NCBI GenBank assembly: GCA_024277195.1
Contig: JAJRVS010000329.1
Span: 1-56,906, forward strand
Direction: 5' to 3'
Length of the DNA stretch: 56,906 bases
DNA from: Verrucomicrobiota bacterium
GTDB taxonomy: Bacteria > Verrucomicrobiota > Verrucomicrobiia > Verrucomicrobiales > DEV007
The notes under the pieces are model-generated. The model did not search any database, was not told where the DNA came from, and was given only the letters and a program-made list of their open reading frames with translations. Positions within the stretch are counted from its first letter, which is position 1; the number at the start of each line of letters is the position of its first letter. A program made the position numbers and the translations under genes. Below are positions 1,621-11,548 of this stretch, piece by piece.

Positions 1621-3015
1621 CTATTTTTTAATCCCCAGATAGTCCAACACTTCATCGTAAAAGCCACTTTGATTAGCATACAATGCATAATTTTTAGCAC
1701 TCTCAAACCACTTGCGTGTCGAGGGTTTTACCAGCTTGGCCGTTTTTGCCAACTGCTTGCTTGTGATCGGAACAATTTTTCCAGATTTCATCGCTTCCGT
1801 CAAAGCAAGCTCGGTGGCTTGATCAAACACCGCCTTGATATCCGCACCGGAGAAATCCTTGGTTCGTTTCGCCAAGGCCTTAGCATCCAATCCGGCAACA
1901 GGCTTGCCCTCTGCTATGATATTAACGATGTCCACCCGTGCCGGCGCATCCGGAGGAGGCACAAAAATAAGCCGGTCAAAACGACCTGGCCTCAGAAAAG
2001 CTGAATCCAAATGCCACGGAACATTAGTCGCCCCCAATACCAACACCCCGTCGTTCTCCTCCATGCTGCCATCGAGTTCGGCAAGGAACTGATTGATCAA
2101 AGTCCTACCCGCTGATGCCCGCAGGTCTTTCCGATCCGCCGCCAAAGCATCGATCTCGTCAAAAAACAACACAGAGGGGGCATGGCGACGTGCCAATTCA
2201 AAAAGCTCATGCAGCTTCTCTTCACTTTTCCCCATCCACATATCGAGGATTTGATGAAGACCCACAGAAATAAACTTGGCATTGATCTCCCCTGCCGTAG
2301 CGCGACTGATCAAAGTTTTCCCGCACCCTGGGGGCCCGTATAACAAAACACCCCCGCCTGCTTTTTTCCCATAAGCTTCGAACAGTTCCTTATTCTGTAA
2401 CGGGTATAGGATTTTCATACGAATATCCTCCTTCACCGTTTCCATGCCGCCCACTTTGGAAAAATTCACATCTGCCTTTTCTACAAAATCGATTTCCAAA
2501 TCATCAAAAATGCCATCGGCATCATTCAGATCTTCCTCACTGGATTCAAACTCAGCCTGCCACCCTTCCGCCGTTTGCGCTGTAGGTTTCCCCCTATCAG
2601 TTTCGACCAAAGCTTCCCCTCCCGCCTGCTTAATCCGCAGCAACAGATCCTCATCCACCAAAGCCACATCAATCGAAATCGCCTGCTCGTAATATTTACG
2701 GGCATCCGGCCCATTGTCCTCTGTCAGAGCCAGTTTGCTTCTCAAAAACCAAGCCGGCGCATGCTCTGGAACCTCTTCACAAAGTTGCTCCAAACGGATA
2801 ATCGCCTCTGAGCTTTTTCCATTCAACTCCAGTATCCGGGCAATGCCCACCTTGGCATCAGGGTTGTTCGGCTCAATACTCAAAGCCTGCTCAAAAGCCC
2901 CACGAGCCTCATCCAACGAAAATTGATCCAAATATGCCCCCGCCAACATCAGGATCAAGGGAGTGTTATTAGGAGAAACGGCTAAAGCCTGTTTTAAAGA
3001 TTCTATGTCTGCCAT
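1621..3015 (-). CDS. TPR-AAA ATPase, similar to the Vps4/katanin/spastin clade
   Basis: The N-terminal ~125 residues are TPR repeats, followed by an acidic linker (about 150-185) and one AAA module. Visible motifs are Walker A GPPGCGKT (227-234), Walker B LFFDEIDAL (about 283-291), sensor 1 GATN and the arginine-finger segment FLRPGRFDR (about 340-348). The pore loop contains MWMGKSEEK, close to the aromatic-x-Gly loop of Vps4-type enzymes. The C-terminus ends with a helix containing YANQSGFYDEVLDYL, reminiscent of the C-terminal helix of the Vps4 group. Such single-module AAA proteins form hexamers that unfold or remodel protein clients. The coupled downstream TPR membrane protein suggests action at the membrane. 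The ATPase assignment is firm; the client and process are unknown. Confidence 0.9.
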   Translation of the reverse strand: MADIESLKQALAVSPNNTPLILMLAGAYLDQFSLDEARGAFEQALSIEPNNPDAKVGIARILELNGKSSEAIIRLEQLCEEVPEHAPAWFLRSKLALTEDNGPDARKYYEQAISIDVALVDEDLLLRIKQAGGEALVETDRGKPTAQTAEGWQAEFESSEEDLNDADGIFDDLEIDFVEKADVNFSKVGGMETVKEDIRMKILYPLQNKELFEAYGKKAGGGVLLYGPPGCGKTLISRATAGEINAKFISVGLHQILDMWMGKSEEKLHELFELARRHAPSVLFFDEIDALAADRKDLRASAGRTLINQFLAELDGSMEENDGVLVLGATNVPWHLDSAFLRPGRFDRLIFVPPPDAPARVDIVNIIAEGKPVAGLDAKALAKRTKDFSGADIKAVFDQATELALTEAMKSGKIVPITSKQLAKTAKLVKPSTRKWFESAKNYALYANQSGFYDEVLDYLGIKK

Positions 3016-3221
3016 GTGAGGTGAGAATGAAGCCTATCCCGGTGCCTACACAAACGAATTTTTATTTCGCCAGCTAAAGCGCAATATCACATGAGCCCAC
3101 AAGGCTGTCATTGACTCTGCCCTCGCTGTGGATACTGTCTGCGGCAGGAGATTGCCCGCAAAAAGCTTGAACAAAAAGCGCGACACGGCGGCCAATCGAA
3201 TGTTTGATAGAAATCACTACC

Positions 3222-5102
3222 ATGGCAGAGAACAGCGAACGTAAAACTTTGGATGAAAGAGCGCAGATGTCAGACATCGAGCGTCTGCGTCACTCCTGCG
3301 CTCATGTGATGGCAACCGCCATTGCCAAACTTTGGCCGGATGCGGAATTCGCCTACGGCCCCCCAGTAGAAAACGGTTTTTATTACGACGTTGATCTGAA
3401 GCACCGCATCACGCCGGAGGACTTCCCAAAAATCGAAAAAGAAATGAAAGCGGTGGTGAAAGCCAACCAGACTTTCGAAAAAGAACTGCTTTCCCGCGCA
3501 GAAGCCATGGCTCTGGCTGAAAGCGGGCGTCTCGGCGCTCTCGCCGAAAGAGAACAACCCAGCCGTTTCAAAATCGATCTCTTGAACGACATCCCGGAAG
3601 ACGAAGAAATCTCGGTCTATAAAAATGGTGACTTCTGGGATCTCTGCGCCGGCCCGCATGTCGGGCGCACCGGCAATTGCAAGGCACACAAAATCATGTC
3701 CGTCGCCTCGGCTTTTTACAAAGGCGACGCGGCCAATCCCCAATTGCAACGCGTTTACGGAACTTGTTTCAAAAACCGCATCCTGCTGGACGAACACCTC
3801 GAGAAACTCGAAGAAGCCAAAAAACGCGATCACCGCAGGATCGGCAAAGATTTAAAATTGTTTCACATCGACGAGGCGGTCGGTCAGGGCCTAGTTCTGT
3901 GGTTGCCCAATGGTGCGATCGTGCGTCAGGAGTTGCAAAATTTCATCGGCGAGCAATTAAACCGCCAAGGCTACCAGCAAGTTTTCACTCCCCACATCGG
4001 CAAACTGGATCTTTACCGCACTAGCGGTCACTTCCCTTATTATTCCGACTCGCAGTTCACTCCCATCGTCGAACGCGATGCGCTGAACAAACTGGCGGAC
4101 GAAGGTTGCGCCTGCGGTGAGTTGTCCAACCAACTCAACGATGGCATCATCGACGGCTTTTTGCTGAAACCGATGAACTGCCCTCATCACATCAAGATTT
4201 TCCAAAGCCAACACCACTCCTACCGCGACATGCCGGTGCGTCTGGCCGAATTCGGCACCGTTTACCGCTGGGAACAAAGTGGCGAGCTCAACGGCATGAC
4301 CCGGGTGAGAGGTTTCACTCAGGATGACGCCCACCTCTTCTGTATCGATGATCAGGTGCAGGAAGAAATTGCGGGCTGCTTGGAGCTGGTGCGAATTATT
4401 TTCGAGACCCTCGGCATGAAGGACTACCGCGTGCGCATCGGCTTGCGCGATCCCAACTCCGACAAATACGCCGGAGATCCTGCCAACTGGGACCGCGCGG
4501 AAAACGCGCTGCGCGAAGCGGCCAAAGAGCTCGGTTCGCCTTACACCGAAGAACTCGGAGAAGCGGCATTTTACGGCCCTAAAATGGATTTTGTGGTGAA
4601 AGATGTGATCGGACGCGAGTGGCAACTCGGCACGGTGCAGGTGGACTACAGCCTGCCCGAGCGTTTCAACCTATCCTACATCGGCCCCGACAACCAACCG
4701 CACCGCCCTGTGATGATCCACCGCGCGCCCTTCGGCTCGATGGAACGTTTTGTCGGAGTTTTGATCGAACACTTTGCCGGCAAATTCCCCACTTGGCTGG
4801 CTCCGGAGCAAGTCCGCATCCTGCCAATCTCGGAAAAATACCTCGATTACGCCAGCGAAGTGGAAAACGAGCTGAAAGCTGCCGGGGTTCGGGCCTCCGT
4901 TGATCACCACAATGAAAAGATCGGCGCAAAAATACGCCTTGCCCAACTCGCAAAAGTTTCTTATATGTTGGTTATTGGAGAGCGTGAACAAGAGTCTAAG
5001 CAAATTTCAATTCGTCACCGCGACCGCGGCGACGAAGGAGCAATGGACGTATCCGCGTTCCGCGATCGTATCGTGGAAGAGATCAAAACGCGGGCCTTGT
5101 GA
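3222..5102 (+). CDS. thrS: Threonyl-tRNA synthetase lacking the TGS domain
   Basis: It charges tRNA-Thr in the cytoplasm. The ATG at 3222 (626 residues) is preferred over an in-frame TTG at 3204. The editing domain is present from the start, with HSCAH (residues 24-28) and the CAGPH segment. The class II core has all three zinc ligands in context: Cys in MNCPHH (Cys320), His in FTQDDAH and His in IHRAPFGS. The C-terminus is the anticodon-binding domain. Compared with the E. coli enzyme, the ~60-residue N-terminal TGS domain is absent, whereas an extra segment of about 30 residues (about 281-311, with a CAC pair) sits before MNCPHH. The next gene on the strand is infC, a common genomic neighbour of thrS. 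Confidence 0.96.
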   Translation: MAENSERKTLDERAQMSDIERLRHSCAHVMATAIAKLWPDAEFAYGPPVENGFYYDVDLKHRITPEDFPKIEKEMKAVVKANQTFEKELLSRAEAMALAESGRLGALAEREQPSRFKIDLLNDIPEDEEISVYKNGDFWDLCAGPHVGRTGNCKAHKIMSVASAFYKGDAANPQLQRVYGTCFKNRILLDEHLEKLEEAKKRDHRRIGKDLKLFHIDEAVGQGLVLWLPNGAIVRQELQNFIGEQLNRQGYQQVFTPHIGKLDLYRTSGHFPYYSDSQFTPIVERDALNKLADEGCACGELSNQLNDGIIDGFLLKPMNCPHHIKIFQSQHHSYRDMPVRLAEFGTVYRWEQSGELNGMTRVRGFTQDDAHLFCIDDQVQEEIAGCLELVRIIFETLGMKDYRVRIGLRDPNSDKYAGDPANWDRAENALREAAKELGSPYTEELGEAAFYGPKMDFVVKDVIGREWQLGTVQVDYSLPERFNLSYIGPDNQPHRPVMIHRAPFGSMERFVGVLIEHFAGKFPTWLAPEQVRILPISEKYLDYASEVENELKAAGVRASVDHHNEKIGAKIRLAQLAKVSYMLVIGEREQESKQISIRHRDRGDEGAMDVSAFRDRIVEEIKTRAL

Positions 5103-5139
5103 TTTTTTATGGGAGTGAAGTGGACAGATTCTAGCTGCC

Positions 5140-5157
5140 GTCCTTTTCCGAAAGGAC
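5140..5157 (+). promoter_or_regulatory. Hairpin with a UCCG loop in the thrS-infC intergenic leader
   Basis: A perfect 7-bp stem (GTCCTTT/AAAGGAC) closes a TCCG loop. It is not followed by a T run, so it is not a usual terminator. It lies about 160 bases upstream of the infC start, in a spacer of over 200 bases that could be an infC leader, a place where translation-factor and ribosomal-protein operons are often controlled. The regulatory role is a guess; only the hairpin is seen. Confidence 0.3.
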
Positions 5158-5305
5158 TGACCTGCGAACCGCTTGCGTCTAGCGCCAGCACCTTGACCGT
5201 TGTCAAAACGGCTAATAAAGAAGGTTGCTTTTCCATCAAGAAATGAACAATGTTATCTTTCAGGTATCCAAATGATGCCTACATACCAAACCAACAAAAC
5301 CAACC

Positions 5306-5311
5306 AGGAGG
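5306..5311 (+). promoter_or_regulatory. Strong ribosome binding site that fixes the infC start
   Basis: AGGAGG is a perfect Shine-Dalgarno core, placed nine bases before the ATC codon at 5321. No other start-like codon lies at a usable distance in the IF-3 frame: there is no ATG, GTG or TTG in frame between the in-frame TGA at 5273 and the ATC. Confidence 0.75.
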
Positions 5312-5320
5312 ACCCTACCT

Positions 5321-8023: not shown

Positions 8024-8395
8024 ATGCAAGCTCTACTCGTTCCCCTCCTGATCGGTTGCCTCGGCGGCACTATCGCTTCTCTCTGCGGAGTCGGCGGAGG
8101 CATCGTCATGGTGCCGGCTTTTGTATTGCTGATGGGAATGGAGCAAAAACAAGCCGTCGCTACTTCCCTAGCAGTGATCGCACCCACCGCCATTGTTGCC
8201 ATCGCCCGCATCAGCGCCGGCCCTGGCTCCTTGGTGCAGTGGAAAATTTTCATCCCTACCGCCATCGGCGCCTGCCTGATCGCTTTTTTTGCCGCCGATT
8301 GGATGAAGAGTTTCAGCAATCAAGCGCTCACCCGCATTTTTGCCGGCGTGCTGATCGTCATCGGATTTTACATGCTGTTCCAAAAACCACGCTGA
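8024..8395 (+). CDS. Half-size TauE/SafE-family membrane protein
   Basis: The 123-residue protein has about four hydrophobic helices. It begins with the typical repeat-unit motif of the TauE/SafE family (GGTIASLCGVGGGIVMVPAF) and ends with the paired helix LTRIFAGVLIVIGFYML. Full family members (about 250 residues) contain two such units; here only one is present, and no second unit follows in any frame before the next gene. Half-size members exist and presumably act as dimers, so this need not be a broken gene. The family exports organosulfur and other anions. The substrate is unknown. Confidence 0.82.
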   Translation: MQALLVPLLIGCLGGTIASLCGVGGGIVMVPAFVLLMGMEQKQAVATSLAVIAPTAIVAIARISAGPGSLVQWKIFIPTAIGACLIAFFAADWMKSFSNQALTRIFAGVLIVIGFYMLFQKPR

Positions 8396-8458: not shown

Positions 8459-11400
8459 ATGACCAAAATACTATTTTGCCTGTCAATCCTATCCCTCGCT
8501 GCAATCGCTCACGCTGACGACTGGCCCACTTATCGCGCCGACGCACAGCGCAGTGCTTACACCCGCGAGAAGCTACCCGAAAAACTCACTCTCCAGTGGA
8601 GCTACCAAGCCAAACACGCCCCGCGCCCCGCATGGCCAAGTTCCATCCGCCTGAGTTTCGACCGAGCCCATCACTCGGTGATCGCCGGCGGCCAATTGTA
8701 TTTTGGCAGCTCTGTGGACGGCAAAGTTTACGCACTGGACGCAAAAAGCGGAGCGCCGCTATGGGATTTTTTTACCGACGGCCCGATTCGTTTTGCTCCT
8801 GTCGTATGGAAAGACCGCGTATTGGTTGTCAGCGACGACGGTCATCTCTATGCCTTGTCTGCTGCAGATGGAAAACTGCTATGGAAAAAAAGAGGCGGCC
8901 CCCAGCACCGTCTGATCCTCGGCAATGCGCGTATGGCCTCGCGATGGCCCGCCCGTGGCGGCCCGGTGGTCGAGGGTAACACGGTTTATTTCGCCTCCGG
9001 CATATGGCCGAGTGACGGTCTTTTTTTATACGCCATCGACGCTGAAACGGGCGACACCCAATGGGTTAACAAAGACTCCGGCAGTATGGAAATGGATCAA
9101 CCCCACGGCGGCGCCAGAGCCAAGAGCGGAGCCTCCGCCCAAGGTTATCTGGTCACCTCCGACCAGCAACTGTTTGTCCCCACCGGACGGGCGGTGCCCG
9201 CGACTTTCGGTCTTTCCGATGGCAAATTCAACTACTTCCATTTAAGAAAAAACAGCAAGAACGGTGGCTCGTCGATAATGGCCACCGACTCCCTGTTTTT
9301 TAACAGCGGCATGCTTTTCGACAGCCAAAGCGGCTTATCCACTGCCACCCTGGGCAAAGGCCCGGCCGCCAGTTGGCCAGGAGGTATGATCCACGCCTCC
9401 GAACAAGGCCTGACCTCCTACCGCTGGATTGATCAAAAAAAGAAAAACCGCAAAGGCAAAAATATTGACTTTCGAGGTATCGAAAAAATCTGGTTCAAAC
9501 CCGATATTAAAAATGCCATCTCTCTGATAATCGCCGGTGAGAACATCATTTGTGGCGAGCCTGGTCGCATCCAGTTGATCAATAGAACCAGTCAAAAAGT
9601 CACCTGGTCTGGCAAAGTTGACGGCCTGCCTCTTGCCCTGGCTGTTGCCGGGCAACGACTGTATGTCGGCACCGACCGCGGCACACTTTATTGTTTCAGT
9701 GGTGAAAAAACACCTGCTCCAGCTCTGGCGCAACCCCAGCACAACTCCAGCCCTTACGGTGACAATACTCGTTATGCTAAAGCTGCTCAAGAGATCATTG
9801 ATAAAACCGGCATCAGCGAAGGATACTGCCTCGATTTCGCCTGCGGCGACGGTGCTTTAGCGTATGAGCTCGCCAAACGCACCCAGCTACAAATCTACGC
9901 CGTCGACGATGACCCCCAAAAAGTGGCCGAAGCCCGCCGCAAACTGGATGCCGCTGGATTTTACGGCTCTCGGGTGACGGTCATTCTATCTGACCTTGGA
10001 AAAACGCCCTACCCAGATTCCTTTGCCGACCTGGTGGTTTCAGCGCGCTCCCTCGATTCGAACCTGGGCAAACAATACAAACCCGAACGCCAACGCCTGC
10101 AACGCCCCTTTGGAGGCATCGCCTGTCTCGGCAACCTTGATGCCATGGAAGTCAAACAACGCGGTGCTCTGGAAGGAGTTGGCAGTTGGACCCATCAATA
10201 CGCCAATGCAGCCAACACTTCTTGCTCAAGCGACAATAAGCTCAAAGGGCCACTAGAGATGTTATGGTATAAAGACGTGGACTTCGAAATGGCCGACCGC
10301 CATACCCGCGCCCCCGCGCCTCTTTTTCATCAGGGCAAATTAGTGGTGATCGGCCTGAATGCGCTGCGCGCCGTGGACGCCTACAACGGTCGTGTTTTAT
10401 GGGAATACCCACTCCCTGGCATCCTGCTGGATCACAACGAAGAAGAACACAACCTAGGTGTTTCCGGAACCAGTGGAGTTTTCTGCCTGTCTGATGACAG
10501 CGTCTTTGTGCGCCGCAAGCACAGTTGTTTGCGCATCAATTTACACAACGGCAAACTGCTGCAGGAATATAAAATTCCCGCCGAACTGAACCAGTCAGAA
10601 AACAAACCGGCGCGCTGGGCTTATCTGGCTTACGAAAAAGGAACCCTCTACGGATCCGTCGCCAACCAACAGCACCTGGTGCAAAATCCCCGCTGGCAGT
10701 GGGTCGGCGAAATCCCTTGGAACACCGATTCCATGCTCACCGAATCAAGCTCACTGTTCGCTATCGATGTGAAAAGCAGTAAAACAAAATGGAGCTACAA
10801 CGCCAAAGATTCCATCCGCAACAACGCCATCGCCATTGGCGCCCAGGGTGTGTTTTTGATCGACCGCCCATTAGCTGAAATGGACAAAAAAGAACGTCGA
10901 CGCCAGAAACCTAATGAAAATCCTCATCCGCAAGGACGCCTAGTTGCCCTCGATACTGAGAAAGGGGAGGTCTTGTGGCAGCAAGACCAAAATATTTATG
11001 GAACCATGCTCGCTCTGAGTGCGGAACACGACGCACTGCTGATGGCCTACCAATCCACCACCGACCGGCTGCCCTCCGAAAAAGGTGGTCACATGACTGT
11101 GTTCAAAGCATCCAAGGGCGAACGCCTGTGGGATCGTCCCGCCGGATACATCACCCGTCCCTTGATCAATGGCAACACCATTTACGCGCAAGGCGGAGCC
11201 TTCCAATCACAGAGTTTCAAAGGCGGAAAAACCGGTTGGGTAAGCCAGCCAGGTGGCAACGGAGCCTGGGACCTGCTCACTGGCGAAGAACGAAATCACA
11301 GCCTCGGCCGCTCCTACGGTTGCGGACAAATCGCTGCCAGCACTCATCTGCTGGTCTATCGCTCGGCCACTCTGGGTTACTACGATCTGCAACGCAAGGC

Positions 11401-11548
11401 AGGAACCGAGAACTACGGTGGTTTGCGGTTAGGCTGTTGGATCAATGCGATTCCCGCAGGTGGTCTGGTGCTGGTTCCCGACGCCACCACCGGTTGCTCA
11501 TGCAGTTACCTCAACCGCGCTTGGTTCGCCCTCCAGCCCAAGCAATAA
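8459..11548 (+). CDS. Secreted PQQ beta-propeller protein with an internal methyltransferase-like segment
   Basis: This 1029-residue protein has a clear signal peptide (MTKILFCLSILSLAAIAHA). The first part (about 20-430) is a run of PQQ-like blades (YFGSSVDGKVYALDAKSGAPLW, shortened here to its core VYALDAKSGAPLW; then LYALSAADGKLLW). A segment at about 435-535 differs: it has the glycine motif LDFACGDG, an acidic residue after the second strand (IYAVDDDP), ILSDLGKTPYP and FADLVVSA, the usual order of a Rossmann SAM-dependent methyltransferase. From about 600 to 1000 PQQ blades continue (LRAVDAYNGRVLWEYPLPG). The whole is exported, so a cytosolic cofactor such as SAM would not normally be available. 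Activity is unproven; the segment may only bind another ligand. The 3' end overlaps the convergent hydrolase gene by 38 bases. Confidence 0.85.
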   Translation: MTKILFCLSILSLAAIAHADDWPTYRADAQRSAYTREKLPEKLTLQWSYQAKHAPRPAWPSSIRLSFDRAHHSVIAGGQLYFGSSVDGKVYALDAKSGAPLWDFFTDGPIRFAPVVWKDRVLVVSDDGHLYALSAADGKLLWKKRGGPQHRLILGNARMASRWPARGGPVVEGNTVYFASGIWPSDGLFLYAIDAETGDTQWVNKDSGSMEMDQPHGGARAKSGASAQGYLVTSDQQLFVPTGRAVPATFGLSDGKFNYFHLRKNSKNGGSSIMATDSLFFNSGMLFDSQSGLSTATLGKGPAASWPGGMIHASEQGLTSYRWIDQKKKNRKGKNIDFRGIEKIWFKPDIKNAISLIIAGENIICGEPGRIQLINRTSQKVTWSGKVDGLPLALAVAGQRLYVGTDRGTLYCFSGEKTPAPALAQPQHNSSPYGDNTRYAKAAQEIIDKTGISEGYCLDFACGDGALAYELAKRTQLQIYAVDDDPQKVAEARRKLDAAGFYGSRVTVILSDLGKTPYPDSFADLVVSARSLDSNLGKQYKPERQRLQRPFGGIACLGNLDAMEVKQRGALEGVGSWTHQYANAANTSCSSDNKLKGPLEMLWYKDVDFEMADRHTRAPAPLFHQGKLVVIGLNALRAVDAYNGRVLWEYPLPGILLDHNEEEHNLGVSGTSGVFCLSDDSVFVRRKHSCLRINLHNGKLLQEYKIPAELNQSENKPARWAYLAYEKGTLYGSVANQQHLVQNPRWQWVGEIPWNTDSMLTESSSLFAIDVKSSKTKWSYNAKDSIRNNAIAIGAQGVFLIDRPLAEMDKKERRRQKPNENPHPQGRLVALDTEKGEVLWQQDQNIYGTMLALSAEHDALLMAYQSTTDRLPSEKGGHMTVFKASKGERLWDRPAGYITRPLINGNTIYAQGGAFQSQSFKGGKTGWVSQPGGNGAWDLLTGEERNHSLGRSYGCGQIAASTHLLVYRSATLGYYDLQRKAGTENYGGLRLGCWINAIPAGGLVLVPDATTGCSCSYLNRAWFALQPKQ

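Follow-up and report, generated by a model that had tools for sequence, protein, structure and literature searches.

The window, by which we mean the whole stretch of 56,906 nucleotides that was analysed, carries at 8459..11548 on the + strand an open reading frame that begins with ATG and encodes an exported protein of 1029 amino acids with two PQQ-type propeller regions. Residue n of this protein begins at window position 8459+3(n-1), so that positions 9760-10060, where the first-pass annotation had seen a methyltransferase-like segment, correspond to residues ~435-535. The signal peptide, MTKILFCLSILSLAAIAHA followed by DDW, was recognised by eye and in a hydropathy scan, and the claim of export is further supported by the relatives of the protein. 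According to a crude hydropathy rule, a signal-like segment lies ahead of the first domain in 31 of 42 relatives with the gene order that we call A-type and in 38 of 39 with the B-type order (both are described below), and by the same rule a second membrane-like segment is present in just one of 81 relatives. Upstream of the gene (window 8024-8395) lies a 123-aa ORF that by eye resembles a short TauE/SafE-type permease.

Table 1. Parts of the protein encoded at 8459..11548, in window coordinates
Feature	Position	Strand	Residues and remarks
Signal peptide	8459..8515	+	Residues 1-19; cleavage between AHA and DDW by eye; hydropathy maximum 2.6 over 12 residues
Propeller 1 (PQQ1)	8519..9703	+	Residues 21-415; start DWP..R.D..R; PQQ_2/PQQ Pfam matches
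Methyltransferase-like Rossmann domain (MT)	9764..10135	+	Residues 436-559, helix Z to strand 5; Pfam Methyltransf_25/11/31 and PDB profile matches
Motif I, LDFACGDG	9830..9853	+	Residues 458-465; canonical D.(G/A).G.G
D483, acidic end of strand 2	9905..9907	+	D/E in 98/137 relatives and in 18/22 of the window clade
Short link	10136..10183	+	Residues 560-575; place of helix and strand 6 in a full methyltransferase core
Propeller 2 (PQQ2)	10184..11545	+	Residues 576-1029; start WTHQY..N..S.D...P...LW; PQQ_2 matches
Four-cysteine signature	11321..11503	+	C955, C993, C1013, C1015; close to the end of propeller 2

A methyltransferase-type fold between two propellers

The location of the methyltransferase-like segment was confirmed. 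Pfam Methyltransf_25 matches residues 458-532 with an E-value of 9.8e-11 and 42.6 bits, against a curated cut-off of 27, and the match to Methyltransf_11 also exceeds its cut-off. A phmmer search with the segment alone, a check that had been proposed at the outset, finds PDB 3dlc at E 5e-10, and a profile of the family reaches the same entry at E 8.7e-15. The motifs quoted in the first-pass annotation all have their place in the protein, LDFACGDG at residues 458-465, IYAVDDDP at 479-486, ILSDLGKTPYP at 509-519 and FADLVVSA at 522-529. On the strength of these profile matches, the segment is homologous to SAM methyltransferases.

It had been considered that the segment might turn out to be only part of propeller blades. 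The profile matches to methyltransferases and a weak secondary-structure prediction of alpha/beta type both speak against this. AlphaFold2 runs made with no alignment yielded mean pLDDT values of 35.6 for the MT segment alone and 35.0 for the whole protein and are unusable as models. In the full-length run, a low-confidence model, residues 436-510 follow the order H-E-H-E-H-E at pLDDT values of roughly 50-66, which lends weak support to a methyltransferase fold, since such an order would fit this fold, unlike propeller blades. Two details of the initial description have to be amended. The segment lies where it was said to lie, but the fold takes in strand 5 and reaches about residue 560; and PQQ_2 blades do flank it on both sides, but it apparently sits between two propeller regions, not inside one.

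As to whether the fold forms a complete methyltransferase core, the answer from the sequence is negative, and the window copy appears to lack a complete seven-strand sheet with strands 6 and 7. The distance from G552 to W577 is 25 residues in the window protein, compared with 38-60 in most relatives with a longer version, and the longer stretch between strand 5 and propeller 2 is present in about half of the relatives. As roughly 25 residues are too few for a helix and strand 6, the core of the window copy is shortened after strand 5. Common to the window fold and class I SAM-dependent methyltransferases (Methyltransf_25/11; PDB 3dlc, 4pne, 3bus) are the elements from helix Z to strand 5, a motif I of the form D-x-A-C-G-D-G, an acidic residue closing strand 2 (D483, in such folds the usual SAM-ribose contact) and LxRPxGG before strand 5. 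In contrast to these enzymes, the window fold is exported, placed between propellers and shortened after strand 5; most family members have a degenerate SAM site, and the near-invariant G455 and G503 as well as the common Y502 are new.

The two propeller regions share PQQ-type blades with BamB and other PQQ_2 beta-propeller proteins. However, the window protein remains far under the equivalog cut-off for BamB (TIGR03300, 77.6 versus 285.2 bits) and differs from BamB by having two propellers, a Rossmann domain and the four-cysteine signature. Propeller 1 gives partial matches, far from the respective cut-offs, to PQQ-dependent dehydrogenases (TIGR03075, 61.7 versus 480 bits) and to the acidobacterial "empty quinoproteins" (TIGR04528, 63.7 versus 650 bits). 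Column conservation among 38 relatives shows D68, R111, D126, D127 and W163 of propeller 1 to be invariant and R166, Q228 and R244 to be near-invariant. The WTH...N..S.D...P...LW stretch that follows the MT domain most likely corresponds to the first strand region of propeller 2; it is similar to DWP..R.D..R...L...W, with which propeller 1 opens, and within the family its W577, H579, D592 and W603 are conserved at.98,.90,.91 and.98, respectively. The four cysteines are spaced C-x37-C-x19-CxC, lie outside every matching Pfam or NCBIfam model and are each conserved in at least 93% of 46 A-type and in 100% of 36 B-type relatives, according to alignment counts. They might form a disulfide or metal site.

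A paralogue-rich family with several gene orders

A profile of ten MT segments was searched over 387 Verrucomicrobiota genomes, of which ~35 hold the family; this count takes in long open frames only, with E-values of about 1e-13 or better, as stand-alone methyltransferases make up most of the weaker rows. In the window's own taxonomic family, the propeller-2 signature and the MT segment are each present in 36 of 59 genomes. The window's genome itself contains 36 places that match the window protein, with an MT-like segment in at least a dozen of the ORFs among them, and a partial copy of the window gene, 96% identical, is found in the metagenome-assembled genome JAADHD01. The family is thus a large and paralogue-rich one of Verrucomicrobiota, of which a single genome can carry as many as a dozen copies or more. 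Paralogues are clustered in tandem on one contig at three loci, L149 (G214:C9:36500-56000), L091 and L097. L149 has four MT-bearing ORFs; the MT match of one of them is split in two (residues 584-678 and 751-842), which hints at an insertion. An MT segment also occurs in some very long open frames, of 2000-4185 aa (L145, G015:C75, G165:C166, G145:C127 and G145:C25), and in some of them the match is limited to the first part of the MT profile.

A scan of viral contigs found no relatives, and plasmid records gave short partial matches only, the majority of them being ordinary PQQ proteins and kinases. That the propeller-MT-propeller architecture is an assembly artefact could be rejected, as it recurs in many genomes and contigs. 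Among 92 gene neighbours, no common partner or pathway was found; an HTH_18 domain occurs in six of them and a sulfatase domain in five. Of 27 full-length members scanned for domains, eight have Malectin, seven Laminin_G_3 and three 3keto-disac_hyd (3-keto-disaccharide hydrolase) matches, in addition to single matches to CBM9 and F5/8 type C. By eye, Laminin-G-like sequence is found between propeller 1 and the MT domain in L033 and inside propeller 1 in L038. Our search of the open-access literature did not come across a description of this family, which may of course exist elsewhere. Its parts are of known kinds, whereas the family as defined by these sequences and its constant combination of MT and propeller appear to be undescribed in the literature searched.

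About 100 family members were aligned, and two fused orders occur among the 98 that were sorted. In the A-type (51/98, including the window copy), the signal peptide is followed by propeller 1, MT and propeller 2; in the B-type (39/98), the signal peptide is followed by MT, propeller 2 and propeller 1. The remaining 8/98 were not placed by the simple position rule, and one protein (L149_9004) is A-type by this rule, yet groups with the B-type on the tree. A third form, the C-type, consists of two adjacent or overlapping genes, the first of which ends in MT and propeller 2, while the next encodes propeller 1. This form is present at L198:1139-5316, where the open frames 2572-5316 and 1139-2575 overlap by four bases, and at L196, L197 and L199-L212. 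Profile-profile comparison indicates that the MT folds of A-type and B-type are one family (probability 99.9, E 3.8e-36). On a tree built from propeller 2, the difference between A and B requires 2 changes, compared with 28 when the labels are shuffled, which argues that MT travels together with propeller 2 and that it is propeller 1 that moves.

Loss of the SAM site and retention of the fold

Of 137 family members, 48 retain the glycines of motif I and 89 have a degenerate motif; motif I together with the strand-2 acid is intact in 42. Stand-alone methyltransferase hits from the same profile search served as control (20 loci, 21 aligned segments), a small set that includes a GMGGCA subfamily and a segment, L233, that is perhaps a family fragment. 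Motif I is intact in 14/21 of the controls versus 48/137 in the family (Fisher p=0.008, a test that ignores sequence relatedness). The acid before motif I (position 459) is present in 24/137 family members versus 19/21 controls, and the strand-2 acid in 98/137 versus 19/21. Other positions show the opposite trend: G455 is found in 135/137 family members versus 6/21 controls (the alignment of several control rows does not extend to this position), Y502 in 96/137 versus 1/21 and G503 in 128/137 versus 9/21, while P550 is conserved equally in ordinary methyltransferases. Judged by these alignments, most members have a degenerate SAM site, while other loops are near-invariant. General fold topology, rather than a model, would place G455, G503 and P550 in turns at the edge of the sheet opposite the SAM pocket.

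Although the SAM site is mostly lost, the fold stays with propeller 2. Among 139 matches to the four-cysteine signature of propeller 2 in 59 genomes, 117 are preceded on the same strand by an MT segment at a distance of no more than 3.2 kb. Twelve of the 22 exceptions were re-read, the other ten being mostly short ORFs. The re-read loci whose 5' region is preserved carry MT (L222-L225, L227, L230 and partly L231); four others are cut by a contig end (L221, L226, L228 and L229). This leaves L232:920-1723, a 268-aa ORF away from the contig end that contains only the four-cysteine end of propeller 2 and is unexplained: it may be a fragment, a split gene or a true form without MT. A clearly intact propeller 2 without MT was not found among these 117 and the twelve re-read matches. 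Compared with 18 relatives from its clade, the window protein shows a mean identity of 48% in propeller 1, 47% in the MT core and 51% in propeller 2. The MT core is thus not decaying markedly faster than the neighbouring domains, and by this measure it evolves about as slowly as both propellers.

A scaffold role for the fold and its alternatives

We consider it reasonably probable that a class I methyltransferase fold was recruited as a permanent structural part of propeller 2 in the exported two-propeller protein, a role for which no SAM chemistry is needed. The MT domain is probably a reused structural part because its SAM residues have been lost in most relatives and yet the fold has not been discarded. 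The domain would pack on propeller 2 via the edge of the sheet opposite the old SAM pocket, with the turns at G455, Y502-G503 and P550, and may help to keep propeller 1 in place, so that the same assembled unit could arise under any gene order. Propeller 1, with its invariant set of Asp, Arg and Trp residues, would be the likely ligand-binding face. Its ligand is probably a glycan, since relatives carry additional modules of carbohydrate type, malectin and laminin-G among them. The simplest reading of the sequences is that the family protein is a surface or periplasmic one and probably glycan-binding.

A dead fold that acts as a spacer had been offered as one explanation from the start. The first half of this idea suits most of the family, given the state of motif I relative to the controls. 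A merely passive spacer, a remnant of an old gene fusion, would also go well with the scattered loss of the SAM motif, the state of which changes at least 20 times on the propeller-2 tree. The idea is nevertheless too weak, because no clearly intact propeller 2 was found to lack the fold, whose conservation roughly equals that of the propellers; moreover, the MT domain has near-invariant residues of its own that are absent from most stand-alone methyltransferases. We therefore regard a passive spacer as quite unlikely.

The window clade (22 sequences) is the exception to the loss of the site, and it speaks against a retired pocket, as canonical sites would be unexpected if the pocket had been retired fully. 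In this clade, D459 is present in 20/22, G463 in 17/22, G465 in 21/22, D/E483 in 18/22 and S528 in 20/22 sequences. A fully canonical SAM site (motif I plus the acids at 459, 483 and 512) occurs in 11 family members, all of them in this clade, and the window copy itself has the canonical motif I and acidic residues. The possibility raised earlier that homologues might consistently lack a SAM pocket is thus borne out only in part: most of the family is degenerate, but the window clade mostly retains the site. Here the fold might bind an extracytoplasmic small molecule of the adenosyl type (SAM, SAH, methylthioadenosine or a nucleoside) and, with no transfer of a methyl group, serve as a sensor or scavenging site that alters the behaviour of the propellers. 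It would fit this alternative, the main rival of a scaffold role, which we think possible and hold only tentatively, that the retained part of the core is the pocket-forming N-terminal half. However, close relatives within the clade have LDLGSDDG, VDLDADTG or a deleted motif I, and the conservation of D483 and D512 is only average. The window clade is the only place where the predicted adenosyl-ligand site looks likely, and even there it is not uniform. To our knowledge, no extracytoplasmic site for SAM or another adenosyl compound is known in an exported propeller family. It is doubtful, in our view, that the fold in this clade has such a site for SAM or a related adenosyl compound, in the broader sense that takes in a sensor or even an enzyme acting on propeller-bound glycans.

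A further alternative is that the protein is an active SAM-dependent methyltransferase outside the cytoplasm and acts on a glycan or protein bound by its propellers. Cell-surface sugars are known to be methylated, and the intact site of the window copy together with its Methyltransf_25 score above the cut-off would be compatible with activity. Yet in this copy the helix and strand 6 that would follow strand 5 are missing, a catalytic residue is not recognisable, and the integrity of motif I is not correlated with the presence of the longer core (p=1.0 for A-type, 0.39 for B-type). In addition, we know of no supply of SAM outside the cytoplasm, and a search of the open-access literature found no paper joining "periplasmic methyltransferase" with "S-adenosylmethionine". 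We therefore consider such an activity highly improbable.

For the proteins of this family, automatic labels such as "methyltransferase domain" are little guide to function. What emerges is an exported family, present in tens of genomes, in which the methyltransferase fold is constant while the arrangement varies between two fused orders and a split into two genes. The window clade is a place for a direct test of whether SAM or a related compound is used outside the cytoplasm, and the family as a whole offers a clean test of whether enzyme folds become fixed as parts of a scaffold.
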